DNA of 38,319 nucleotides from Rhodanobacter sp. (GTDB lineage: Bacteria > Pseudomonadota > Gammaproteobacteria > Xanthomonadales > Rhodanobacteraceae): positions 1 through 38,319 of the forward strand of contig JAISPQ010000062.1 of the NCBI GenBank assembly GCA_031274955.1, given 5' to 3'. Shown one piece after another: positions 7,629 to 21,067 of the stretch; positions within the stretch are counted from its first letter, which is position 1; each line of letters opens with the position of its first letter. Below the pieces are notes generated by a model. That model saw nothing but the letters and a program-made list of their open reading frames with translations, had not been told where the DNA came from and made no database searches. The position numbers and the translations under genes are program-made.

Positions 7629-7655
7629 CAGGGGGCTAATCTTGCCCCTGTTTCT
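7629..7655 (+). terminator. Putative terminator after the + strand decarboxylase gene
   Basis: CAGGGGGCTAATCTTGCCCCTGTTTCTCT hairpin plus T-rich tail in the convergent intergenic region. Confidence 0.45.
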
Positions 7656-7759
7656 CTGACTCCAAGATCATCTGATCCACGCTAGGCGAAAAGCTCCCCA
7701 ACGTGCACCCCTGCATCTGGCACGAAGATGATCCTCATAATACATACGCGACGCCGCCC

Positions 7760-8197
7760 TCAGATGCTCTGGTACAACGTCATGCTGGCTTTGGCGACTT
7801 CTTCGTCCTTGCACATCGACGAGCACGAGAAGCGACAAAACCTAGACGAAGTCGCTCCGTCATCCAGGACGCTCAACGGTTTTGCCTGCATATCGATAAC
7901 ATCGCCGGGTCGCACCGGTTTTATCAACTTCACCCGCTCAATCGAAGCAATGAATCCCCCCGCTTTCTTACCCAGCCGCCAGTTGAACCAGGCACGGCAC
8001 GATTGAGCCATGCTTTCCACCAGGATTACGCCTGGTACGATCGGCTCGCCGGGGAAATGGCCGGCGAAGAACACTTCGTCACCGACGTAACGATAAGACG
8101 ATCTAATAATGCCGTCTTCATCGCTGAAGCCGGCTTCATTTACGAACCGGAAAGTTGTAGCCTGTTTTAGGTACAAATCGAGGTCAATACGTTCCAT
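7760..8197 (-). CDS. FabZ-like 3-hydroxyacyl-ACP dehydratase
   Basis: Hotdog motif FFAGHFPGEPIVPGVILVESMAQS. Start at 8197 (MERIDLDLYL), 1 nt after the upstream stop. Confidence 0.8.
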   Translation of the reverse strand: MERIDLDLYLKQATTFRFVNEAGFSDEDGIIRSSYRYVGDEVFFAGHFPGEPIVPGVILVESMAQSCRAWFNWRLGKKAGGFIASIERVKLIKPVRPGDVIDMQAKPLSVLDDGATSSRFCRFSCSSMCKDEEVAKASMTLYQSI

Positions 8198-8198
8198 G

Positions 8199-8624
8199 CT
8201 AGCGTCCGCTGATGACAATACCGACGCTCCCAATCACGGCGAGCTGCTCCTCTGAATACACTTGAAAATCGAACTCGTACAAGGTCGATCGCTCACTCAC
8301 CAATCGCGATTCCAGTCGCAATGGTAAACGCAAGGCTTCGCGAATCTTGTGCTCAATGCCACGGAACGATGCGATGACTCCATGTGATCCTTCCTTCTTG
8401 CGATCTCGAAGAACCAGGCCCGAGGATTGCGCAGCAAACTCCAAAACTGCGTAGGTATCTACCCATAGCGCGTCCGCGAAACGCTCCGGCAAACAGCGTC
8501 CATGCAAAAATTCAGTCACCACTCGGACTTCGTCCAAATAGCGCACCCGGTCGACGAACCGGAACGGCGCCGTTTGGGCGAGCCCATCGATGAGGCGCGC
8601 GGATTCGGCTTCGCCCACCTCCAT
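8199..8624 (-). CDS. Second hotdog-fold, diverged dehydratase-like protein
   Basis: 141 aa; APFRFVDRV...ADALWVDTYAVLEFAAQSSGLVL resembles the FabZ/ApeP scaffold without a clear HF..PG active-site motif. Confidence 0.55.
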   Translation of the reverse strand: MEVGEAESARLIDGLAQTAPFRFVDRVRYLDEVRVVTEFLHGRCLPERFADALWVDTYAVLEFAAQSSGLVLRDRKKEGSHGVIASFRGIEHKIREALRLPLRLESRLVSERSTLYEFDFQVYSEEQLAVIGSVGIVISGR

Positions 8625-8628
8625 CTAA

Positions 8629-9411
8629 TCAGTTTCTCGACAATGCGGTCTTGGTGAACATCGAATCCGGATACGTCGCCTTCTCGTATTCGCTCATCTT
8701 CATCCACACCGCGCTCGACGCACGAATGCCATCGACGATGACAATCTTCTCAACTTTTGGACCGCCCGCGTAGTCGTGGAAAGCCTTGTATTGGATGGTT
8801 TTGAGTAATCGCTCTGAAGCGGTGTAGTGCCGGCTTTCGACCGGCCTGTCCGTGACAAGATCGTAATCGAGATCGATGCGTGCATAGGTTGCGCCGACAT
8901 CCTTGCTCTTCAGGCCTAACTGCAACAGTTTTCCGTCCGTGGATTTGTGGCTGGACTGGATGGTGTAGTCGTTGAGGTAGGACACATTGAGCACATCGGC
9001 AATCGAAGCTGCGCCAAACACGCGCTGCAGCGGTGCGATCCGAATGATGTTCGCGCTGCTCGGCAAGTACAACCACAGGTCGCGATCGCGCAACAAGGTG
9101 CGGCGTCCGCGCTGATTCTTTGGCTCGAGCACCTCGATTAGCGCGTAACCCTTCTCGCTGATCTTCACTTCCAACTGGTGCTGATCTGAGTTGACACCAT
9201 TCTCAACGGTGATCACCTCAGCCGTGAAGTGGAATCCCGTCCCCCGGAATCCACGAAGATATTCCATGTTGCCGAGGATTCGGTTTGTAACCTGCTCGCT
9301 TACTGCGGATGGAACGGCCGCCGCGCTCGGACTCGCGTCCGACACTGCGGCGAAACAAAAGTTCGCGTGCAGCGCGGTGAGCGTGATGAAACATTTGCTG
9401 ATAAGTTTCAT
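8629..9411 (-). CDS. LolA-like outer membrane lipoprotein-sorting protein
   Basis: Start at 9411 (MKLISKCFITLTALHANFCFA, signal peptide); GYALIEVLEPKNQRGRRTLLRDRDLWLYLPSSANIIRIAPLQRV is characteristic. Confidence 0.75.
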   Translation of the reverse strand: MKLISKCFITLTALHANFCFAAVSDASPSAAAVPSAVSEQVTNRILGNMEYLRGFRGTGFHFTAEVITVENGVNSDQHQLEVKISEKGYALIEVLEPKNQRGRRTLLRDRDLWLYLPSSANIIRIAPLQRVFGAASIADVLNVSYLNDYTIQSSHKSTDGKLLQLGLKSKDVGATYARIDLDYDLVTDRPVESRHYTASERLLKTIQYKAFHDYAGGPKVEKIVIVDGIRASSAVWMKMSEYEKATYPDSMFTKTALSRN

Positions 9412-9421
9412 GGTTTTTTCC

Positions 9422-10645
9422 TCAGCGCTGCATCGCTTCATTGATCGGCAACTTGCCCGCTCGGTACGCTGGGAAGAAGCCGCCCACAACTGTTGCGACG
9501 AGCGATAGCGCCGCAGGAAGCAGGAGGATGTTGTTATTGAGCAGAATACGCAGCGGATACGAGAATGTCGATCCCGGTGGTGTTGGCATTTTTATGTTGG
9601 CGAGATTGATCAAAAGGGCAATACCTGCGCCGCATGCGACGCCGAGGATGACGGCGAGTATTCCGACCACGAGTCCTTCCGACATCACCATGACCAGTAA
9701 GTTGCCGCGCGACGCACCGAGCGCGCGTATGGTAGACAATTCCGAAACCCGCTCCATCACCGCCATCGTCATCGTGTTGAAGATTGCTGCGAAAATAATG
9801 ATGACCACTAGCACGGTCACGAACCCGAAAATGTTGTCGAACATGGTCACGATCTGATGATATTGATCGGACATGTCGGACCAGGATTTGACCTCAACTC
9901 CGCCGCCTACGCTCGCCGCTGCCGCGCGAATCCTCGTATCGGTCTGAGGTGTTTGCCGATCCTCATCGAGCAACACCACGAGATTGGTCACGGCGTCGGA
10001 CAGCAGCGTTTCCTGCATCAGGGGCAAGTTGATCTTGATGAAACGTTTGTTGAGTTCTTTAGCGCCGGTATCCATCACGCCGGTAACCTTCACGTCGACG
10101 GCGTTGATCGCTCCCTCCGAGGTCGTGACGAGAATGGTGAGCGCGTCACCCAGCTTTGCTCCCAATTCCCCCATGAGCTCACGGCCGACCAGTGCCCCGC
10201 TCTGGTTTCCTGCGAATAGCCCGGTGCCTTGAACGACCTTGACTGCATTGCTGATCTCGGCGTCTTTGTCTGCTTCGACGCCAAAGATCAGCACGCCTAC
10301 GGATTTATTTCCGAACGACACGAGACCCTGCGCCTCGATGCGCCGAGTGACCAGCCTGACCTCATCGAGCGACTTGAGGGTGTCCTCGATTCGTGTGGTC
10401 GTACCGGCATCAAGCAAGCTCTTCGCATACGACTCCTTGGCCTGCACGGTGGAAAAGATTTGGTAATGGCCCAATTGCGAATAAATACTGCCCAAGCGAA
10501 TTCCTTCATAAATCTGTGCGATATAGCCACCGAACAGGATCAAGCTGATCGTGCCGATCACGATTGCAACGCACGCGATCATGTTCTTGCGCCAGTCACG
10601 AACGACGTTGAGCAGAATCAACTTCGCGAAAAACGACAGGTACAT
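9422..10645 (-). CDS. ABC transporter permease, FtsX/MacB/LolCE type
   Basis: 407 aa; N-terminal TM, periplasmic domain, C-terminal TM block VMERVSELSTIRALGASRGNLLVMVMSEGLVVG... Confidence 0.85.
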   Translation of the reverse strand: MYLSFFAKLILLNVVRDWRKNMIACVAIVIGTISLILFGGYIAQIYEGIRLGSIYSQLGHYQIFSTVQAKESYAKSLLDAGTTTRIEDTLKSLDEVRLVTRRIEAQGLVSFGNKSVGVLIFGVEADKDAEISNAVKVVQGTGLFAGNQSGALVGRELMGELGAKLGDALTILVTTSEGAINAVDVKVTGVMDTGAKELNKRFIKINLPLMQETLLSDAVTNLVVLLDEDRQTPQTDTRIRAAAASVGGGVEVKSWSDMSDQYHQIVTMFDNIFGFVTVLVVIIIFAAIFNTMTMAVMERVSELSTIRALGASRGNLLVMVMSEGLVVGILAVILGVACGAGIALLINLANIKMPTPPGSTFSYPLRILLNNNILLLPAALSLVATVVGGFFPAYRAGKLPINEAMQR

Positions 10646-10646
10646 G

Positions 10647-11318
10647 TCAGACGTCCGCTGTTAGGATTGCGCGCATTTGTGGCTGGCCGCCTTGTTGCGT
10701 CAGTTGCCACTCGACTTCAGCGAGCGTCTCGCGCGCGCTCGTCTGCAGGTCGAGTGAAAGCTCAGCAAACCGCAGATTGTTTGTGGCCAACCGCTGATCG
10801 TCGCGGGCGACTTCGCGCTTACCCATGAATTCGGGGACTCTCGCCGCGGTCATACCGCAATTGAGCCGAGCCGTGATGTTGTCGGGATACTTGCTCACCG
10901 CGCGGTTCGAGATAATGGAACCCTTCGGCCGAATAGGTGCCGGCCTGCTGCGGACTGTCGATATGGAATGCCACCTTTTGCGCGAGTAGAGCGCGCCGAG
11001 CGCCGACATCAGCCCGACCTCGGACAGCTTCGCCCTGTCTACATTCAGTTTGTCGGACTGCGTCATCAATACCTTAATCGCAGCCGCATCGGTGTCGAGG
11101 CGATCTTCAGTCAACGCGCGATCCGCTATTGCCGAGGGAACTTCGGCAAGCGTCTTTTCGGCAGCCTGTTTGTACGAGCTTTCGTTCAGCTTTCCGGAAA
11201 TATCGGGACTGTTCTGCGCTACAGGTGCGTCAACCGCGGATTTGCCGCAGGCGCTGACGACGAGCGCGATGAGCAGTGCGGCAATAAGAGGGAGAAATGA
11301 CTTGAACATGTGTGCCAC
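10647..11318 (-). CDS. Periplasmic lipoprotein associated with the ABC transporter (possible compensated frameshifts)
   Basis: Lipobox LIALVVSAC after a signal sequence; lies between permease and ATPase genes. The middle segment reads better in an alternative frame. Confidence 0.6.
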   Translation of the reverse strand: MAHMFKSFLPLIAALLIALVVSACGKSAVDAPVAQNSPDISGKLNESSYKQAAEKTLAEVPSAIADRALTEDRLDTDAAAIKVLMTQSDKLNVDRAKLSEVGLMSALGALYSRKRWHSISTVRSRPAPIRPKGSIISNRAVSKYPDNITARLNCGMTAARVPEFMGKREVARDDQRLATNNLRFAELSLDLQTSARETLAEVEWQLTQQGGQPQMRAILTADV

Positions 11319-11327
11319 CCTCGAGTT

Positions 11328-11984
11328 TTAAAGAAGTCTTCCATCTTGCATGTTTAGCCGACGCACGGCACTGTCGGAGAAATCGCGGTCATGTGTGGCG
11401 ATGACCAAGGTGACGCCTTTTTCGTGATTCAAGCGCTGCAGCAGTTGATAGACGATCTGCGTGTTCTCGGTATCGAGGTTCGCGGTCGGCTCGTCGGCGA
11501 TAATCAATTCCGGTTTCTTCGCGAATGCGCGCGCGATCGATACCCTCTGCATCTGCCCACCGGACAACTGCTTGGGTTTGCGATCGGCGAAAGCATCCAT
11601 GCCGACATCGGCGAGCGCTTGTATTGCCTTGCTCCTCGCCTGCCGGTCCTTGAGCATGTATAGTGGGTACATCACGTTCTCGACTGCGGTCAACGTCGGA
11701 TGCAGGTTGAACTGTTGAAAAATGATGCCAATCTTTTGCCGTCGAATCTGCGCAAGTTCGGCATCGGAAGCATCGCTCACCCGCCTATCATCAAAGCTCA
11801 CATCGCCCGAGGTGGGTTGGTTGATCAGCCCGAGAATTCCCAACAACGTGCTCTTGCCGCTGCCGCTCTTGCCGGTGACACAGATCAATTCGCCGCGGTC
11901 TATGCGCAGTGTTACATCGCGCATGGCGAACGACCGTACCTGACTGTTCGCATATTCCTTGCTGACATTCTCTAGGACGAACAT
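11328..11984 (-). CDS. ABC transporter ATP-binding protein, MacB/LolD type
   Basis: Walker A GKSGSGKST, signature LSGGQMQR, Walker B ELIIADEPTANLD, H-loop ATHD. Confidence 0.95.
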   Translation of the reverse strand: MFVLENVSKEYANSQVRSFAMRDVTLRIDRGELICVTGKSGSGKSTLLGILGLINQPTSGDVSFDDRRVSDASDAELAQIRRQKIGIIFQQFNLHPTLTAVENVMYPLYMLKDRQARSKAIQALADVGMDAFADRKPKQLSGGQMQRVSIARAFAKKPELIIADEPTANLDTENTQIVYQLLQRLNHEKGVTLVIATHDRDFSDSAVRRLNMQDGRLL

Positions 11985-11987
11985 CGA

Positions 11988-12527
11988 TCAATGCTCCCCG
12001 ACATTCGGATTGATGGAGTATTCGAACATCGCAGGCAGCGTGCTGATCACGTCGCTGATCTTTGCTAGTGCTGCATTGTTGAGCCGATTACCAGTCGGAC
12101 TGATCCACCGGATCGAGAATTTGTTGTCGCCGGCGGACCAGGAGTAGAGCTTGAAGTTTGCGTCCACGCACAGGTGATCGGTCCCCCTAGCAATCAGTTC
12201 TTCGCTCTCTGCCGCGAGGTCGTAGAAAATGGCAACGCGCGGGTCCAAAAGACTGGGTGGAAGCGCAATGACCGCTGGCATCTTCACTCGCACAAGAACG
12301 AGCCGCGCGATATTTTCCTGTAGCACGGTCTCAATCAGTCGGTCGAGGAAACGATAGTATTCATAGAACGAGATCACCAGCGGCAGATCCTCGTTGAAGT
12401 GCAACTGCAACGGAATATGCAGCTCGTCCTCGGCGAACAATGCATTGCTCAACAACGCGGGAAGAATCTCGCGCTTGCGCATACCTACGTCCAGTCGTCC
12501 CTGAAACCCTTCGTTGATCATGCTCAT
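11988..12527 (-). CDS. Hypothetical protein in operon
   Basis: 179 aa, overlaps the upstream CDS by 4 nt and is packed in the - strand operon; no family recognised. Confidence 0.6.
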   Translation of the reverse strand: MSMINEGFQGRLDVGMRKREILPALLSNALFAEDELHIPLQLHFNEDLPLVISFYEYYRFLDRLIETVLQENIARLVLVRVKMPAVIALPPSLLDPRVAIFYDLAAESEELIARGTDHLCVDANFKLYSWSAGDNKFSIRWISPTGNRLNNAALAKISDVISTLPAMFEYSINPNVGEH

Positions 12528-13363
12528 GCGTGGCCTTCAATACAGATTCTCGAATGCGCATTTGTCATCACGGACAGGAAGCAACAGTAGCCTTCAGACG
12601 CAAAAGAAGAAGCAAGATAACGTTTGCTTCCGGCACCTGCGCTAGCGACGTCTCTGGCGATCGACATCCATGGATCCGAACCGCACAGATGTCCAAACTC
12701 CTCGTACAGATCCGGCAGGTACTCAATTCCGTCCATGCTGCGTTTGAGTCCTTTGCGCATCTTCTCCTCGAAATAGGGAATCGCGAGCGTGTGATCCGGA
12801 TGACTAGCCATGGTTCGCTGGATTTCGAGTGCGTAGTCGTAGAGCGCTGCGGTCGGGTTGCACTTGCTGACGGTAATTGCGCGAGCAGGATGATTCGGCA
12901 TACCATCGCCGACTTGCTCCGGGCTTTGCAGATGCACCAGCGTGACCCGATGCCCGGTCTTACCCCAGGAGACGTTGTTGTCCCAGAAACGCATTCCGAG
13001 TGGGTTCGCGTCCACGACCGAGATCAGGATGTTGCGAACGTCGGGCTTGTTGATCAGGTGCTGGCGAACCAGAAATCCCCAAGTTGCGCACTGCATCGCG
13101 TTGGAGTAGGAGCAGCGCAGGCCCGACGCTGCCTGAATCTTCCGAGTCAACGCTACCGGCTCGAACCAACCGGCCGAACAGGTGATATCGAGCGTTGAGC
13201 TACAAATATAGTGAGCGAACCCGCCGCCGCATGAACTGGACATGGCGCGCGCGACGAACCCACCCAGTTTTTCAGTCAGACGATCGACGAACACTTCGGA
13301 CGCGAGCCCGTCGAGAAAAACGCTCCTCGAAATGTCGATGTTCTTGATCGCCAAGGCTGTCAT
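12524..13363 (-). CDS. Divergent thiolase-fold / KAS III-like ketosynthase or acyltransferase
   Basis: 279 aa; SSTLDITCSAGWFEPVALTRKIQ, NAMQCATWGFLVRQHLI (candidate catalytic Cys), DLYEEFGHLCGSDPWMSI near the C-terminus. Confidence 0.6.
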   Translation of the reverse strand: MTALAIKNIDISRSVFLDGLASEVFVDRLTEKLGGFVARAMSSSCGGGFAHYICSSTLDITCSAGWFEPVALTRKIQAASGLRCSYSNAMQCATWGFLVRQHLINKPDVRNILISVVDANPLGMRFWDNNVSWGKTGHRVTLVHLQSPEQVGDGMPNHPARAITVSKCNPTAALYDYALEIQRTMASHPDHTLAIPYFEEKMRKGLKRSMDGIEYLPDLYEEFGHLCGSDPWMSIARDVASAGAGSKRYLASSFASEGYCCFLSVMTNAHSRICIEGHA

Positions 13364-13364
13364 C

Positions 13365-14399
13365 TCAGCGTATCTTGACTTTGCTGTAGATCTCGAATAG
13401 GCAGCGGTAGGAGCTGCCTTCCATGCGCGTGAACGCCATGAGGTCGCGCTGGATGGATGGATCGGAGACCGTTTCGGAAGTCACCAGGTCCAACAACAAC
13501 CGGTTCGAGGCGAACTTGATGGCGAGGGCTGCCGGCAAGCTCGGCTTCCTTTCCACCAATCCGTGGTAGTAGGTTTTGGCGATTGCTTCCAGCGCCGTCG
13601 CGCTACTGCGTTGTTGTGGCGAAAGCGCAATTCTGCCGTTCGCGTCGAGCCACTTCACGTGCGCCATCAACGCGCGAACGAAGCGCGGCCGCACCTTCGA
13701 CAGGAATATCGAAGTGGACACGAGACCTCCGCGGGTGAGCATGCGTGACTTCGGTACAGTGACTTTGCCGCTGACATTGCCCAATTGCAGGGTGCCGTCC
13801 AAGAACGGCGTACCAGACGCTGTCTTCTTGAGTTTGGCGAATTCGTCCGGCGGCACCAAGATCGAAGTCGGATAGAGCTTCTGTGTCGACGCGGCGGAGA
13901 CCGAACCGAAGTTCAACCGATGCCCTTCGATGATCCAGACCTTGTCTACGTCGAGCGCCAGCACCTCGCCATCGTTGGCAAAGACCGTATTCCATTGCTG
14001 TATCGAGCTGCCGCCGGCATCGGCCATCAGGAAGCCGCCGAACTGCGCGATCCCGCTTTCGTGCCAAGACGCAACTTCCGCCTGTTGCGCGTCGCTGGCG
14101 ATCATGCTGAACAGCAAACTGCCGAATTCACGGACCAGCGCATGAAAATTGCCACCGTAAAATCCTTCAGCGCAAATGGTCAGTTGGATCTTCTCGATGC
14201 ATTCCTCGATCGGACCGAACGACGTGCGTGCGTTACTCGCAATGGCCTTGCCTTGCCCAACCGCGAGGCAATCGTTCCCGTCGATGATCATTTGCGTGTC
14301 GACCGTCGATACGACGCCGGCCTTGATCACGTGCTTCAGATAAGTCGGGACGTCGCCGAGCTCTGACAATCCAGCGACGATGCTTTGATCCAACTGCAT
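13365..14399 (-). CDS. Diverged acyl-CoA dehydrogenase-like protein
   Basis: 344 aa; FGGFLMADAGGSSIQQWNTVFANDGEVLALDVDKVWIIEGHRLNFGSV is reminiscent of the ACAD middle domain; weak recognition. Confidence 0.45.
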   Translation of the reverse strand: MQLDQSIVAGLSELGDVPTYLKHVIKAGVVSTVDTQMIIDGNDCLAVGQGKAIASNARTSFGPIEECIEKIQLTICAEGFYGGNFHALVREFGSLLFSMIASDAQQAEVASWHESGIAQFGGFLMADAGGSSIQQWNTVFANDGEVLALDVDKVWIIEGHRLNFGSVSAASTQKLYPTSILVPPDEFAKLKKTASGTPFLDGTLQLGNVSGKVTVPKSRMLTRGGLVSTSIFLSKVRPRFVRALMAHVKWLDANGRIALSPQQRSSATALEAIAKTYYHGLVERKPSLPAALAIKFASNRLLLDLVTSETVSDPSIQRDLMAFTRMEGSSYRCLFEIYSKVKIR

Positions 14400-14869: not shown

Positions 14870-15649
14870 TCAGCCGCCAAATTCGCGCAGCGCCGCCCGC
14901 ACATCCGCCTCGCCGGGAGTGCGGTTCTTGCGCTCAGCCAGCACGCCAGCAAAGCGCAGCGCCTTGACCATGTTGCGCATGCCGCCCGGCTTCGCGCTGG
15001 CGTCCATGAGTGAGCGGCGCAGCTTGGCGTCGCGGATAGCCCATGCATCAAGTGCCGCGCCCGCATCGTCGGGCGTCACGCCGGGTAAGCTCAACGTGCG
15101 GCCGATGCGATTGCGCAAGCCATCCAGCATCACCGCGCCATCACCGCCACTCAGGCGGCTATAAAGCGCCGGACTGCCGATTAGTGCAATGCCGATGCGC
15201 GCCGCGTCATGGATCGCGCGCAGTTGGTCGAGCGCGGCGTCACTCAAGCATTGCGCTTCGTCAACGATCAAGAAACGGGTAGAGCCATAGGGGCCTACAC
15301 GGCGGATAATACCTTCATGCAACGCGGCCGCGCCTGCGGCCTTTTCCGGTAGAGCGCCAACAACATCGCCGATGGCTTTCAACGCCGGCACAATGCCCGC
15401 CGTCGCGGGACTCATTGCGACGTACCGGGCACCGTCGCGCGTAACCGTGTATTCCGTGGCCGCCTCGCTCTTGCCCGCACCGCCCGGCCCGTAGAGCAGG
15501 ACTACATCATGCGTGACCTGCGCGTAACTCAGCAGTTCCATGATCTTCGTGGCGGTGGGTGTTTCGATCCAGTCTTGCGGATGGAGCAGCGTTGCCGCGC
15601 CGATGGACGTGGCTGGCCGCGCATCCGTAACAAGCGTCGCCGTATTCAT
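14870..15649 (-). CDS. MuB-like AAA+ ATPase (transposition target activator)
   Basis: Walker A LLYGPGGAGKSEAA, Walker B TRFLIVDEAQCL; immediately downstream of the MuA gene with a 4-nt overlap. Confidence 0.85.
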   Translation of the reverse strand: MNTATLVTDARPATSIGAATLLHPQDWIETPTATKIMELLSYAQVTHDVVLLYGPGGAGKSEAATEYTVTRDGARYVAMSPATAGIVPALKAIGDVVGALPEKAAGAAALHEGIIRRVGPYGSTRFLIVDEAQCLSDAALDQLRAIHDAARIGIALIGSPALYSRLSGGDGAVMLDGLRNRIGRTLSLPGVTPDDAGAALDAWAIRDAKLRRSLMDASAKPGGMRNMVKALRFAGVLAERKNRTPGEADVRAALREFGG

Positions 15650-17547
15650 AGGCGGCTCCTTTTGAGCGGCACCATCGAAGTAAAGAGGCCAACCGTGAAC
15701 GACACTTCGCCGCTTGGCAGCGCCGTCGTCGAAGAGGCCATCTTGCGTTTCGGTCGGTGCAGCTTGATGACCTTGGCTTCGGGCATCACCGGTTCAGGAA
15801 TGGCCGGCATTGCGTGCGGCTGCGCCGCCGTCCGCCATGCAAGCTCGGCGGCGGCCTTGGCCTTCACCGCCTTACGGAACCGATTCTTGGCCTTTATCGC
15901 TTCGCTCGCTTTCTCCTTCGTGTCGAACCCGGTTTTGTAAGTACACGGCACGAAACCAAGATACGTACGGTCGGGCAGGAACACATGCACGCCCGTGTGC
16001 AGGCTTTTCGGGTCGAAGTGCGCATGAACTTTCTTACCTTGATGCTCGGCCAGTGATTCAGACCAATACACATTGTCGGCAAGATGGATGGCTCCGGTTC
16101 CTTTTCTCACGGTCACCGCTTCGGTGGCGAGCAGCATCGTTGCAAGCTGCGTTTTCGTCGCCTTGGTCACCGTCGATTCGGCATACAGCGCGACAAAGGT
16201 GGCATCGAAGCTGCGTCCCGCGCACACACCGCCGCGCCGCCCGTCACGCGCATTGTGTTCGCGCACGCCGTCGTCCAGCACGCGTATGAACTCCGCGTAA
16301 TCAACCGCGCGGCTACCGTAGTTCTCCGGTTTGTTGTCGGGGCTGTTGCCAAGATATGCGCCCGCGAATTCTGGGCGCTTGGCTACATCGTCGGCAAGGT
16401 CGCGCCATGCGCGTTCGATCGGCTTGGCCTTACCGTTGTAGGGCGTAACCCAATGCACGTTCACGCCCGCGCGCGTGAGTGCGCCTTCCGGGTCTTCCGC
16501 GCGCACCTTGAAGCGGTAGCGTGTCGCCATGCCGCCCGTGTTTTGCTTGCTGGCGAATGCCCGGCCATTGTCGAGATAAGCATGCTGCGGAATGCCGTAA
16601 GCCTTCACCATGTCGCAAAACGACAGGCGCACCAGTTCGGCCGTTTCGCTCTTGCCGACGCGATACGCAAGCAGCTTGCCGGACGCGATATCTTGCCAGC
16701 CGACTAGAACCGGACGGCCAATGCTGCCGTCCGGGAACTTCACCGCGACATCGAAGGTGTGACCATCGGCGTTCACGCGCTCCATCGCGGCAAGCTCGGC
16801 GCGGCTGCGCTCGATCTTCGGTCCCATGCGCATCATGGCTTCTTCGCCTTCACGTAGCAGGGTACGCGTGGTGGCGGATAGTTCATTCACGCGGCGTTTC
16901 ACCGTGCGCAGTGACGGTAGCGGCCGCCATTCATTCGGTGCCGATCGCCTCAATCGGCGGTAACAGCTTTCCACGTTCGGCTTCTCCAGCCTCAGATAGT
17001 CCCGTTTGAACTCCGCCCATGCGTCGGGGTGAATTTCCACCCGCATGGGCTTGCCGCGTTCTTCCGGCAGCAGCAGCGCGGGCCAATGCGGCTTTGCGAA
17101 TCCGCGCACCTTGCGCCCCCATCGTTGTAGTACACTGACACTGCAACCGGTTTCGGCGGCTACTTGCGCGCGCGCGGTTTCAAGGTTCAGTGTGACATCT
17201 TTTTCCCGCAATTCGTCAACGCGCAACAACGCAGCAACGCGGCGTTCCGCCGTTTCCTTGCGTGCGCCTTTCGCGTTGTCGAATTGGGCTTGCGCCGCGC
17301 GCACTTTTTCCGTGCGCTTGGCGTTGGCGGTATTCTGCGCGATGCAGCGCTGCGTTTCGCGCCGCTCGCGCAGTGCGGCCAAGGCGCATTGTACATCGCC
17401 GGGCAAGGTTGCCTCATTATAGATGTGTGCTTCGCCACCTCGCCATTTCATGGCAGTGAAGGGCCATGCTTCAAGCGCCGCGCGCTGCTGCACACGACGT
17501 GCGCCAATCTCAAGCGCGTTTGCAATCTCCTTGACGACCACGGTCAT
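15646..17547 (-). CDS. MuA-like DDE transposase
   Basis: Start at 17547 (MTVVVKEIANALEIGARRVQQRAA). DDE candidates NADGHTFDVAV / HAYLDNGRAF / NGKAKPIERAWRDL; Mu C-terminal beta-domain-like region. Confidence 0.88.
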   Translation of the reverse strand: MTVVVKEIANALEIGARRVQQRAALEAWPFTAMKWRGGEAHIYNEATLPGDVQCALAALRERRETQRCIAQNTANAKRTEKVRAAQAQFDNAKGARKETAERRVAALLRVDELREKDVTLNLETARAQVAAETGCSVSVLQRWGRKVRGFAKPHWPALLLPEERGKPMRVEIHPDAWAEFKRDYLRLEKPNVESCYRRLRRSAPNEWRPLPSLRTVKRRVNELSATTRTLLREGEEAMMRMGPKIERSRAELAAMERVNADGHTFDVAVKFPDGSIGRPVLVGWQDIASGKLLAYRVGKSETAELVRLSFCDMVKAYGIPQHAYLDNGRAFASKQNTGGMATRYRFKVRAEDPEGALTRAGVNVHWVTPYNGKAKPIERAWRDLADDVAKRPEFAGAYLGNSPDNKPENYGSRAVDYAEFIRVLDDGVREHNARDGRRGGVCAGRSFDATFVALYAESTVTKATKTQLATMLLATEAVTVRKGTGAIHLADNVYWSESLAEHQGKKVHAHFDPKSLHTGVHVFLPDRTYLGFVPCTYKTGFDTKEKASEAIKAKNRFRKAVKAKAAAELAWRTAAQPHAMPAIPEPVMPEAKVIKLHRPKRKMASSTTALPSGEVSFTVGLFTSMVPLKRSRL

Positions 17548-17651
17548 GGCGCACTCGCAGTAAAAAGGGCCATCCATACCACCGACGCGAGCAACGTGCC
17601 GACGATCAGGCAGATCAGGTTTTCCGCATCGGTGTTGCGTGTGCGTTTCAT
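17544..17651 (-). CDS. Small single-TM phage protein
   Basis: MKRTRNTDAENLICLIVGTLLASVVWMALFTASAP; overlaps MuA start and upstream gene stop. Confidence 0.5.
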   Translation of the reverse strand: MKRTRNTDAENLICLIVGTLLASVVWMALFTASAP

Positions 17652-18028
17652 GCCGCACCCCGCTTGTCGTTGGCGTGTTTTTTCGGATGGGAACAGTACG
17701 CGTGTTTCCCAGCCATGACGCCGCATATCATCATCTCGCCGTAACGCTCGGCCTGTTTTGTCGATTCGCGCCGACGCGCTTCGTACATCGCCTTGTACAG
17801 TTCCCGCGCGTCGGCAGTCAGTATCGAGAGCGCATCCATTGCCACCAATGTGGCATACCCGGTTTCTTGCGACGGAAGACAGCTGGTCAGCGCACAGGCC
17901 AATTCTTTCACACTGTCCAAGCAGTTATAGGCTTCTTCGTTCAGTTCACTAGCGCGCGCGGCGCGGTCGTAGAACAACACGTTTTGCGTGGCGCCGCTCG
18001 GCAATGGGTAAAGGTCGCGCGCGTTCAT
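17648..18028 (-). CDS. Hypothetical phage-type early protein
   Basis: Start MNARDLYPLPSGATQN at 18028; overlaps neighbouring genes in the same operon. Confidence 0.55.
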   Translation of the reverse strand: MNARDLYPLPSGATQNVLFYDRAARASELNEEAYNCLDSVKELACALTSCLPSQETGYATLVAMDALSILTADARELYKAMYEARRRESTKQAERYGEMMICGVMAGKHAYCSHPKKHANDKRGAA

Positions 18029-18369
18029 GCCGCACCTCCCACGCGGTGCAGCACTTCGCACGCATTCTCGGCGGTGTGCATCTGCGCCACGGGCTGTTCG
18101 GCCTCGATGTAATCGCGCAGCGCGTCGTAAAGCTCGGCGTAGCGGTTGGCGCACAGATCTTCGGCGATGGCGCGCAGTTCCACCGCAAGCCTTTCAAGAG
18201 CAACGGCGCGCAATTGCCGGTCAAGCGTTTCCGAGTCGAAGAGGCGACGGCCTTCGAGCGCGCGGGCCGCGTGTTCCAATATCGCCGCCCACATCTGGCG
18301 CGGCAGCTTGAGGGGAAGAGAAAGGTTTTCAGGCATGGCCGCGCGTGCGGCCGGGATAGAACGATTCAT
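18025..18369 (-). CDS. Hypothetical phage-type early protein (first gene after the C4-like leader)
   Basis: Start MNRSIPAARAAMPENLSLPLKLPRQ at 18369 preceded by CCTGAGGATCGCACC (SD TGAGGA). Confidence 0.55.
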   Translation of the reverse strand: MNRSIPAARAAMPENLSLPLKLPRQMWAAILEHAARALEGRRLFDSETLDRQLRAVALERLAVELRAIAEDLCANRYAELYDALRDYIEAEQPVAQMHTAENACEVLHRVGGAA

Positions 18370-18377
18370 GGTGCGAT

Positions 18378-18592
18378 CCTCAGGTAGTTGAGTGACCGCC
18401 GCCTCGATGTCAAACGAGGTGACGGACGGTACGCGGTTGACATACCGGCCTGAGGACCGGCGAGCCTTGCGACTCCCGCGCACCGCCCGCCATAAATCGG
18501 AAGGGGTTGTGCCCATCGATGCAGGCAACAAAAAAGCGCCGGCATCTGGCGATGGGCGCATATGCGCCTCAGGTCTCGGGATGTCAAACCCG
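18378..18592 (-). ncRNA. C4/P4-CI-type antisense regulatory RNA leader
   Basis: Sense hairpin loops ATGTCAAA at 18407-18414 and 18581-18588, complementary loop TTGACAT at 18437-18443. CCTCAGG at 18378-18384 and 18567-18573, complementary CCTGAGG at 18449-18455. One target overlaps the SD of the 18369 gene. Confidence 0.75.
18530..18559 (-). terminator. Rho-independent terminator/attenuator within the leader
   Basis: - strand RNA GCGCC-CATC-GCCA-GATG-CC-GGCGC-TTTTTT. Confidence 0.65.
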
Positions 18593-19164
18593 GCCGCCGA
18601 TTTGGCGGCAACGGCAGCATCATGCCTCTGGCGATACCCTACAGTCAAGACTTAGTGTTTCCACTTCCTCGCGTATTTTTCCGCGCCTTCTGCCAGTGCG
18701 GTAAAAGCGGTTTTCAATGATTCCAACATGGTGACTTATCTCCGAGTTTGTGGCGCGCACAAGCTATGAAAGGGATTGAGGGACAAGCGCGTTACAGATC
18801 GCGCGCCACTTCGTGCAGCGGAATTTGATCGGTCGCAACGTTGAAATTCAGTGGCGCGGTGAAGTTGAAGACTCCGGCGGCACCGTGAACGCGAACGGTT
18901 CCATGCTACGTACAGTGGGCGGCTGTGCGCCGAGCAGGCCAACATGTTTGAGTGAAAACACGCTGGGTGTCGGATTGCCAACAGTGTCCGGCTTGAAAAA
19001 CGCCGCCGAGACATTGCGATAAGCTCCACTGCGCACGGTAAGCGCACAGGGCGATCGCGCTATGTCTTGAAGACGGGTTTTCAAGCACACTTTGGGCGCG
19101 ATAGGTGTGTACGGAGAAATGGGATGGACGCCTCCCTCTCCAAACGTGGTGGAAGCGTAAAGGT

Positions 19165-19239
19165 GGACCCTCCGGGCCGACGGCATCAATGTGCCCAAGC
19201 GAGGTAAACCGAAGTTTCCACAGGCAAACCGGAGGGTCC
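19165..19239 (+). promoter_or_regulatory. Perfect 11-bp inverted repeat abutting the IS110 transposase start codon
   Basis: GGACCCTCCGG (19165-19175) and CCGGAGGGTCC (19229-19239); ATG at 19243; the right arm contains the GGAGGG Shine-Dalgarno. Confidence 0.7.
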
Positions 19240-19242
19240 GAA

Positions 19243-20268
19243 ATGAACGATAGCAAGAATGTGATCGGCGTGGGTATCGCCAAGCGGGTGTTTCAGGTGT
19301 GCGAAGTCGATAAGGCAACGGGTGAGATGAAAAGCATGCAGCTCCAACGCGAGAAATTTCTGGAGTACTTCGCGAATCGATCGGTGTGTCTGATCGGCAT
19401 GGAAGCGTGTGGTAGCTCGCAGCATTGGGCACGCAAGCTGATCGCGCTTGGGCACACGGTCAAGCTGCTGCAAGCGCGTCAGGTGAAGGCGTTTGTCTGC
19501 GGCAACAAGAACGACGTGGCCGATGCGAAGGCGATCTGGCTGGCGGTACAGCAACCTGGCGTCAAAGCGGTGGCGATCAAGAGCGAAGCACAGCAGGCGG
19601 TGCTGGCGATGCACCGGATGCGGCAACAGTTGGTGAAGTTTCGCACCGCGCAAATCAATGCGTTGCGCGGTCTGCTGACGGAATACCGCGAGGTGATGCC
19701 ACAGGGGCGGCATGGAATCGTCAAACGTCTGCCGGAGGTCTTGGGCCAACTCGCCGATCGGTTGCCTGCGCTTCTGATCGACACCTTGCGCGAACAGTTC
19801 GCGCGCATCGGCAAGCTCGATGAGGAGGTAGCCGAGATCGAGCGGCGACTGCGTGATTGGCATCGGCGGGATGATGTGTGTCAACGAATCGCCGAGATTC
19901 CCGGCGTCGGCATGCTGACCGCGACCGCGGTGGTGGCGACGATGGGCGATGCAAATGCGTTCAAATCGGGCCGCGAATTTGCTACTTGGCTCGGTCTGGT
20001 GTCGCGGCAAACGGGCACGGGCGGCCGGGTGAAACTGCTCGGCATCAGCAAGCGCGGCGATACGTACGTGCGCACGTTGCTGATCCACGGTGCGCGCTGC
20101 GTCCTTGCGAACAGCAAATCACCGCCGGAATGGACGAGCAATCTGGCGCGACGTCGCCCGCTCAACGTAGCAGTGGTGGCGTTGGCCAACAAGATGGCAC
20201 GAACCCTCTGGGCGCTGTTGGCCCATGAGCGGAGGTATCAGTGTGGGTACGTGAGTCAGCCGGCGTAG
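19243..20268 (+). CDS. IS110/IS1111-family transposase
   Basis: 341 aa from ATG 19243; IGMEACGSSQHWARKL, NKNDVADAKAIW, IPGVGMLTATAVVATMGDANAFKSGREFATWLGLV, LLGISKRGDTYVRTLLIHGAR. Confidence 0.93.
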   Translation: MNDSKNVIGVGIAKRVFQVCEVDKATGEMKSMQLQREKFLEYFANRSVCLIGMEACGSSQHWARKLIALGHTVKLLQARQVKAFVCGNKNDVADAKAIWLAVQQPGVKAVAIKSEAQQAVLAMHRMRQQLVKFRTAQINALRGLLTEYREVMPQGRHGIVKRLPEVLGQLADRLPALLIDTLREQFARIGKLDEEVAEIERRLRDWHRRDDVCQRIAEIPGVGMLTATAVVATMGDANAFKSGREFATWLGLVSRQTGTGGRVKLLGISKRGDTYVRTLLIHGARCVLANSKSPPEWTSNLARRRPLNVAVVALANKMARTLWALLAHERRYQCGYVSQPA

Positions 20269-20690: not shown

Positions 20691-20776
20691 ATCCGCGCGA
20701 CCGTGGTAACCAAGCCGGTGTAGCGCGAACGGCAGTGTGTTTTCATTGATTGGCTTGCACGCATTCGATCGGCTCG

Positions 20777-20802
20777 GGAACAACAACGGGATTGTTCCCG
20801 TG
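20777..20802. repeat. 9-bp perfect inverted repeat (operator or terminator-like)
   Basis: CGGGAACAA-CAACGGGA-TTGTTCCCG. Confidence 0.6.
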
Positions 20803-21067
20803 AGCACGTGAATCTCGCTAATTAAAGTGCAAACGGATCGGAGTGAAGGAACTCACCGCAAGGATTTCCACTCCCGCAAATTTATTGCGGTTGCCGCAAT
20901 GTCAGCGCAACCGCGCGGGGCGTGCGCCATCGGCGCGCATGCGGTACTCTATGGTCACCCGGCCAACAGCGTGAATCTTCCGACGCGAGGACACAACCAA
21001 GGTTGCGGATCGACTGCGGGAACTGGGAGTCCCGCGCCGAGCTCTTTTCAACTTCACACGGAACGAT

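Follow-up and report, generated by a model that had tools for sequence, protein, structure and literature searches.

Transposition of the Mu type is a textbook case of control by DNA-binding repressors, and in Mu-like phages the genes c and ner lie ahead of A and B in the early region. In the satellite phage P4, an antisense RNA (the CI RNA) constitutes the main immunity and the replication operon is located behind it, while the logic of the C4 RNA of phage P1 is reportedly that worked out by Citron and Schuster in 1990. Polarity dependent on Rho is known in both P1 and P4. The work of Citron and Schuster (1990) on the P1 C4 is cited in PMC12197685, and the C4 and c4-a1b1 RNAs are both already contained in the study by Weinberg and colleagues in 2010 (PMC2864571). 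Further, in Gifsy-1, the IsrK RNA activates orf45-anrP in trans, with coupling through an upstream ORF (PMC4825925). As the C4 RNA family is already known, what is new in the present case is what the C4 RNA controls, and no published report linking C4 to Mu-type transposases or transposable phages was found in the open-licence literature. The stretch of Rhodanobacter DNA analysed here (38,319 nucleotides, referred to as the window) carries a leader on its reverse strand, in which a C4-type antisense RNA probably acts as the switch of a Mu-type transposition operon.

The RNA encoded at 18497-18415 on the reverse strand is a member of the known C4 family. The Rfam match covers the model over its full length and lies well above the curated threshold (Table 1), as had been anticipated in the first-pass annotation, which proposed an antisense RNA of this type from the letters alone. 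In both the Rfam alignment and the minimum-energy fold (-51.8 kcal/mol, z -6.3), a long closing stem surrounds a GGGAGUC/GGCUC hairpin and a UCCUCAGG hairpin, and UAUGUCAA is single-stranded in the junction. The three-helix fold is supported by covariation among 32 aligned C4 homologues, where paired cells make up 91.7% of the fold alignment and 70 cells show double changes, against 24.3 +/- 3.7 in shuffles (0/500); kinship among the sequences inflates these figures, and slid controls are far lower. The antisense unit of the first-pass annotation is also present, and its string CCTCAGGCCGGTATGTCAA occurs a single time in the window (18455-18437, reverse strand). However, the two adjacent hairpins that had been drawn for this unit cannot coexist, because one CCGG arm is common to both, and they are therefore mutually exclusive.

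Reading along the reverse strand, the order of the elements is the promoter-like site, the a1b1/isrK-like region (18625-18530), C4, the second target (18414-18377), orf1, orf2, MuA and MuB. The module to which the span 18378-18592 had been assigned is thus real but longer than described, as it starts near the promoter-like site at 18648-18619 and takes in the isrK-like segment. One promoter-like site of this kind was found against 0.3 expected in shuffles, and its match to the consensus should not by itself be interpreted as evidence of function. The a1b1 match in the window is below the curated threshold of RF03163, with the homologous stretches in the related loci L050 and L051 lying above it; by its position and its pairing (the right letters in the right place), the segment in the window would nonetheless work like c4-a1b1. 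Similarly, the isrK-like segment, which ends in GGCGC-TTTTTT and is likely a terminator or attenuator, is below the curated threshold of RF01394 in the window and above it in L051, L052 and L061. Exactly two copies of the pattern TTTGACAT-N5..30-CCTGAGG are present in the window (18588-18567 and 18414-18378; 0 expected in 100 shuffles), and the two occurrences, both on the reverse strand, flank the C4 RNA, one on either side, in agreement with the two target-like units noted at the outset. In the downstream unit, CCTGAGGA lies directly upstream of the ATG at 18369 and it is, as had also been recognised, the Shine-Dalgarno sequence of orf1. The perfect complementarity claimed between loops and targets holds for 7 nt in each motif and for 8 in the case of CCTGAGGA, but not for 8 throughout.

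Table 1. Coordinates of the features of the module and its surroundings in the window
Feature	Position	Strand	Match or remark
Promoter-like TTGACT-18-CATGAT	18619..18648	-	9/12 consensus match, upstream of leader
a1b1-like upstream target	18573..18625	-	RF03163 c4-a1b1, 38.1 bits (threshold 46.7), E 3.7e-8 for this stretch
isrK-like segment ending in T run	18530..18612	-	RF01394, 40.1 bits (threshold 50), E 2.6e-7 for this stretch
Upstream target segment TTTGACAT	18581..18588	-	
Upstream target segment CCTGAGG	18567..18573	-	
C4 antisense RNA	18415..18497	-	RF01695, 68.8 bits (threshold 45), E 1.7e-11 for the window
Antisense loop CCTCAGG within C4	18449..18455	-	
Second antisense segment ATGTCAA within C4	18437..18443	-	Junction, unpaired
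Downstream target segment TTTGACAT	18407..18414	-	
Downstream target segment CCTGAGGA	18377..18384	-	Also Shine-Dalgarno of orf1
orf1	18025..18369	-	114 aa, first gene behind the C4 target
orf2	17648..18028	-	126 aa, start overlaps orf1 stop
MuA-type transposase	15646..17658	-	Open frame, 670 aa; PF02914 179 bits, PF09039, PF09299; phrog_310 423 bits
MuB-type transposition protein	14870..15649	-	259 aa, start overlaps MuA stop; PF09077, AAA_22; phrog_296
Fragment similar to I-type head protease upstream of C4 in L052	18893..19027	-	56% over 45 aa, E 2e-13
IS110-family transposase gene	19105..20268	+	PF02371, PF01548; insertion upstream of module
P4-like tyrosine integrase fragment	20706..20852	-	47% over 49 aa to L061 integrase, E 3e-8; element membership uncertain

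The genes behind the second target form a Mu-type transposition module. MuA and MuB, which the first-pass annotation had named as an operon, are both identified unambiguously by Pfam and PHROG, and the acidic residues of the DDE core of MuA are invariant in the alignment. Neither orf1 nor orf2 belongs to any Pfam or PHROG family; homologues of orf1 come after C4 in L050, L051, L052 and L061. From orf1 to MuB each gene overlaps the next by a few bases, and the Shine-Dalgarno sequence of orf1 is therefore the entrance to the whole operon. No gene of the Ner or CI type was found in the 10 ORFs scanned around the operon or in orf1 and orf2, so that the arrangement of c and ner ahead of A and B, which is present in related loci, is not seen here, as first stated; the genome is an 80.8%-complete draft and such a gene could lie elsewhere in it.

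When this arrangement is compared with the described systems, the likeness to P1 and P7 is extensive, as it includes the RNA fold, the two antisense segments and the a1b1 upstream target (RF01695 and RF03163), as well as a downstream target over the Shine-Dalgarno sequence of a small first gene with more genes behind it. However, P1 adds this RNA to a protein repressor, and the output there is Ant, an antirepressor encoded behind icd, whereas the window has orf1-orf2-MuA-MuB as the output and a search nearby revealed no protein repressor. With P4 the window shares an antisense RNA with an operon behind it, but P4 has the alpha primase-helicase and a tyrosine integrase, while the window operon has MuA/MuB and only an integrase fragment is present upstream. 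The early region of Mu (c, ner, A, B) likewise has MuA and MuB as an operon; however, Mu and the nearby relatives that were examined possess c/CI-like and Ner proteins, and in the window the C4 RNA is found instead.

Based on these comparisons, we infer transcription, repression, polarity and immunity at this locus along the following lines. Transcription would start upstream of the a1b1 element; some transcripts would end at the isrK-like terminator and the rest would continue through C4, orf1, orf2, MuA and MuB. The folded C4 RNA would then present CCUCAGG and AUGUCAA, pair with the two segments ahead of orf1 and cover its Shine-Dalgarno sequence, with the a1b1 segment serving as a second pairing site or a decoy. 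If orf1 is not translated, then MuA and MuB would be shut off through translational coupling and/or Rho polarity; as the direct target of C4 is orf1, the control of MuA/MuB would have to run by one of these routes. A resident copy would silence itself as well as any newcomer whose loop letters match, whereas copies with other loops would escape, an immunity proposed by analogy with P1 and P4. The C4 module occupies the position that c/ner have in related MuA loci.

A different reading of the same arrangement is that C4 mainly controls orf1, an Icd-like effector, and that MuA/MuB downstream are under their own control. The target indeed covers the Shine-Dalgarno sequence of orf1 only, and in the P4-like locus L061 (tRNA-Leu, integrase, int-alpA RNA, AlpA, C4, orf1) a homologue of orf1 is found behind C4 and no MuA is seen up to the contig end. 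However, orf1, orf2, MuA and MuB overlap, so that a further promoter would hardly fit between them; a Ner or CI gene that could provide the alternative control was not found near the operon, and the linkage between C4 and MuA is kept across MuA proteins down to 38% identity. Due to these observations, we regard control of orf1 alone as unlikely.

The isrK-like segment raises the question of the sign of regulation. As in isrK-orf45-anrP of Gifsy-1, the window has an isrK-like leader, a terminator open to read-through and a short first ORF that would be coupled to the gene behind it, but the output in Gifsy-1 is an antirepressor and IsrK acts there in trans as an activator. Because of this activation in trans, regulation at the leader could be more complex in sign than simple repression, with a second layer possible. 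If the short isrK-like RNA were the main regulator, activating the operon in trans as IsrK does in Gifsy-1, then its match with the T run, the matches above threshold in three related loci and the published activation with upstream-ORF coupling (PMC4825925) would all be accounted for. However, compensating changes have preserved the C4 structure and both of its antisense segments, and activation alone leaves the absence of c/ner unexplained; a main role for the isrK-like RNA is thus quite improbable, somewhat more so than control of orf1 alone.

The pairing between antisense and target segments, on which the C4 switch depends, can be followed between loci, as the letters of the two co-vary among the MuA loci. 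In the window the pairs are CCUCAGG/CCUGAGG and AUGUCAA/UUGACAU, while the genome G012 has CUGUCAA/UUGACAG, and G115 and G140 have CCUUGUG/CACAAGG. When the segments were exchanged between loci, the own pairs exceeded all 5000 permutations in three of the four pairings (loop with upstream target, loop with downstream target, and second segment with upstream target), whereas for the remaining pairing, between the second segment and the downstream target, the result of the same 5000 permutations was not clearly above chance, and this pairing is the weakest of the four. Two further C4 RNAs are present in the window's own genome (G000:C6:13183-13269 and G000:C127:2581-2663), near P4-like integrase genes. 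The loop letters of both differ from those of the window C4, and the duplexes of their loop segments with the downstream target of the window are weaker (-10.4 and -14.2 kcal/mol, against -19.3 for its own); with the upstream target, however, one of the two comes close to the score of the window C4. The weaker cross-duplexes on the downstream target are as expected for separate immunity groups, to which these C4 RNAs would belong. The specificity lies in two segments, each some seven letters long, and changing a few bases in pairs could therefore be enough to create new immunity groups; how immunity specificity evolves in such a transposing element would in this way become readable and testable.

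Across the order, MuA was found in 14 of 398 genomes, at 15 places. At four of these (the window, G012, G115:C21 and G140; two of the four on short or truncated contigs) a C4 RNA lies about 0.7-1 kb upstream of MuA on the same strand, and the order C4-orf1-...-MuA-MuB is shared by the window and the three other genomes. The MuA proteins of these loci are 38-53% identical to that of the window, and in a tree of 44 MuA proteins, made by a quick method and with L052 on a long branch, the four C4-linked proteins form one clade (SH-aLRT 100), while a C4 upstream of MuA is absent for all the other 40. The nearby MuA loci without C4 that were examined carry Ner-type (PF13693) and/or divergent CI-like repressor genes. 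Among the 80 genome loci and 144 viral rows of the MuA alignments, some of which overlap, a scan found C4 upstream of MuA only in L063 (= G012) and L065 (= G115). MuA also has matches in annotated phages and plasmids. Searches of viral contigs with the window MuA alone and with orf1 returned no loci. A second MuA is present in the genome of L051 (L055, G115:C73, 9297-13365), without C4 and with an I-type protease like that of L052 about 2 kb downstream.

It is mainly this conservation of the C4-MuA linkage across a diverged clade that leads us to believe in its function, and, judging from the same order, the single clade and the joint letter changes, C4 is not a chance neighbour of MuA. The identity of C4, the logic of its two targets and its placement ahead of MuA/MuB are thus supported from several sides, viz. 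the Rfam match, the target pattern, the Pfam and PHROG assignments and the comparative data. The possibility that C4 was left behind by a nearby P4-like element and came to lie next to MuA by rearrangement, without function for it, has in its favour the gene fragments and the IS110 in the window and the P4-like C4 elements in the same genome. However, one and the same order is seen in four genomes whose MuA proteins are diverged and form one clade, the loop-target pairing persists despite letter changes and the frames of MuA and MuB are intact; this explanation is already disfavoured by the conservation, and we consider it highly improbable. The simplest reading of the sequences is instead that C4 replaced c/ner once, long enough ago for MuA to have diverged to 38-53% identity, and an antisense RNA seems to have taken over from c/ner throughout this clade of MuA. 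Such an exchange of the regulation of a transposing element looks ancient and rare, and it does not appear to have been described before.

What kind of element is served by this control is best seen in G012, where the insertion (about 8.55 kb, from about 10,226 to 18,776 in L050) is bordered on both sides by CTAGC, an apparent 5-bp target duplication, and the genes flanking it lie almost side by side in other members of the genus, the window's own genome included. The apparent ends, which were assigned by eye, are TGT...ACA: the insert appears to start with TGTAGGCGGACAAAAGTAATGACACC and a second tandem 23-bp copy, and to finish with the inverted copy GTGTCAATACTTCTGTCCCCGCACA. A search of 100 relatives found this end motif in no other of them, and it is not in the window or L052. 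The element has genes for a 137-aa protein, AlpA, Mor, an HTH_17 protein, an I-type protease and a 200-aa protein; it further contains an int-alpA RNA and C4, orf1, orf2, MuA and MuB, with MuA and MuB as the last genes before its end. Capsid, portal and tail genes were not recognised in it, only the I-type protease and Mor, and the C4-MuA system may therefore belong to a small transposon or satellite of the Mu type and not to a complete phage. The proposal that Mu-like transposition is under antisense-RNA immunity is consistent with the presence of C4 ahead of MuA/MuB; however, its wording as phage immunity is too strong, because the sole sibling with resolved boundaries is this element of about 8.55 kb without recognised virion genes.

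Traits of P4 satellites are distributed over these loci. AlpA, the int-alpA RNA and C4 occur in L050, which extends the likeness to P4 noted above, a primase-like gene follows orf1 in L051 and has a homologue in L052 (65% identical), and the window has the integrase fragment; a full primase-helicase was not found in L050, L051, L052 or the window. The P4-like locus L061 shows the setting in which a module of this kind is otherwise seen. Tentatively, the elements of about 8.5 kb could be transposing satellites of Mu-like phages with RNA-based immunity, which combine control of the P4-satellite kind with MuA/MuB, although we hold this to be rather doubtful at present. On this tentative reading, AlpA, the int-alpA RNA, C4 immunity and, in some of them, a primase remnant would make up the control part, and Mor and the I-type protease could act on the late genes and capsids of a Mu-like helper. 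The element in G012 points to small elements in which a P4-like control module is combined with a Mu-type transposase and which standard annotation would miss. The element in the window is itself damaged, with the protease fragment, the IS110 insertion and the integrase fragment upstream, and, set as it is among fragments and IS110, this copy may no longer be mobile. Adjoining MuB, at 9422-14399, is a cluster of genes, either host genes or cargo, for the ATPase of an ABC transporter, a permease of the FtsX type and three proteins that match no Pfam or PHROG family.

C4 RNAs are also found in other settings in genomes with MuA. The Mu-like viral contigs L181 and L273 resemble the window in having a C4 with its target before the next gene, but their C4 is located 4-5 kb downstream from MuA, and the gene that follows it encodes Ant (Bro-N) or Rha, which is the P1 arrangement (L181, C4 at 8385-8465 with the gene at 8508-9212; L273, 7521-7604 with 7651-8286). 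The supposition that C4 near MuA always belongs to a P1-type C4-ant module was rejected, as L181 and L273 have such a module in this downstream position and the arrangement in the window differs. In L301, where C4 (7472-7556) is likewise 4-5 kb downstream from MuA, it stands before a 70-aa ORF that has no family assignment. Lastly, some relatives (G063, G074, G123, G108, G026 and G050) hold 10 to 19 C4 copies per genome, with varied loops.
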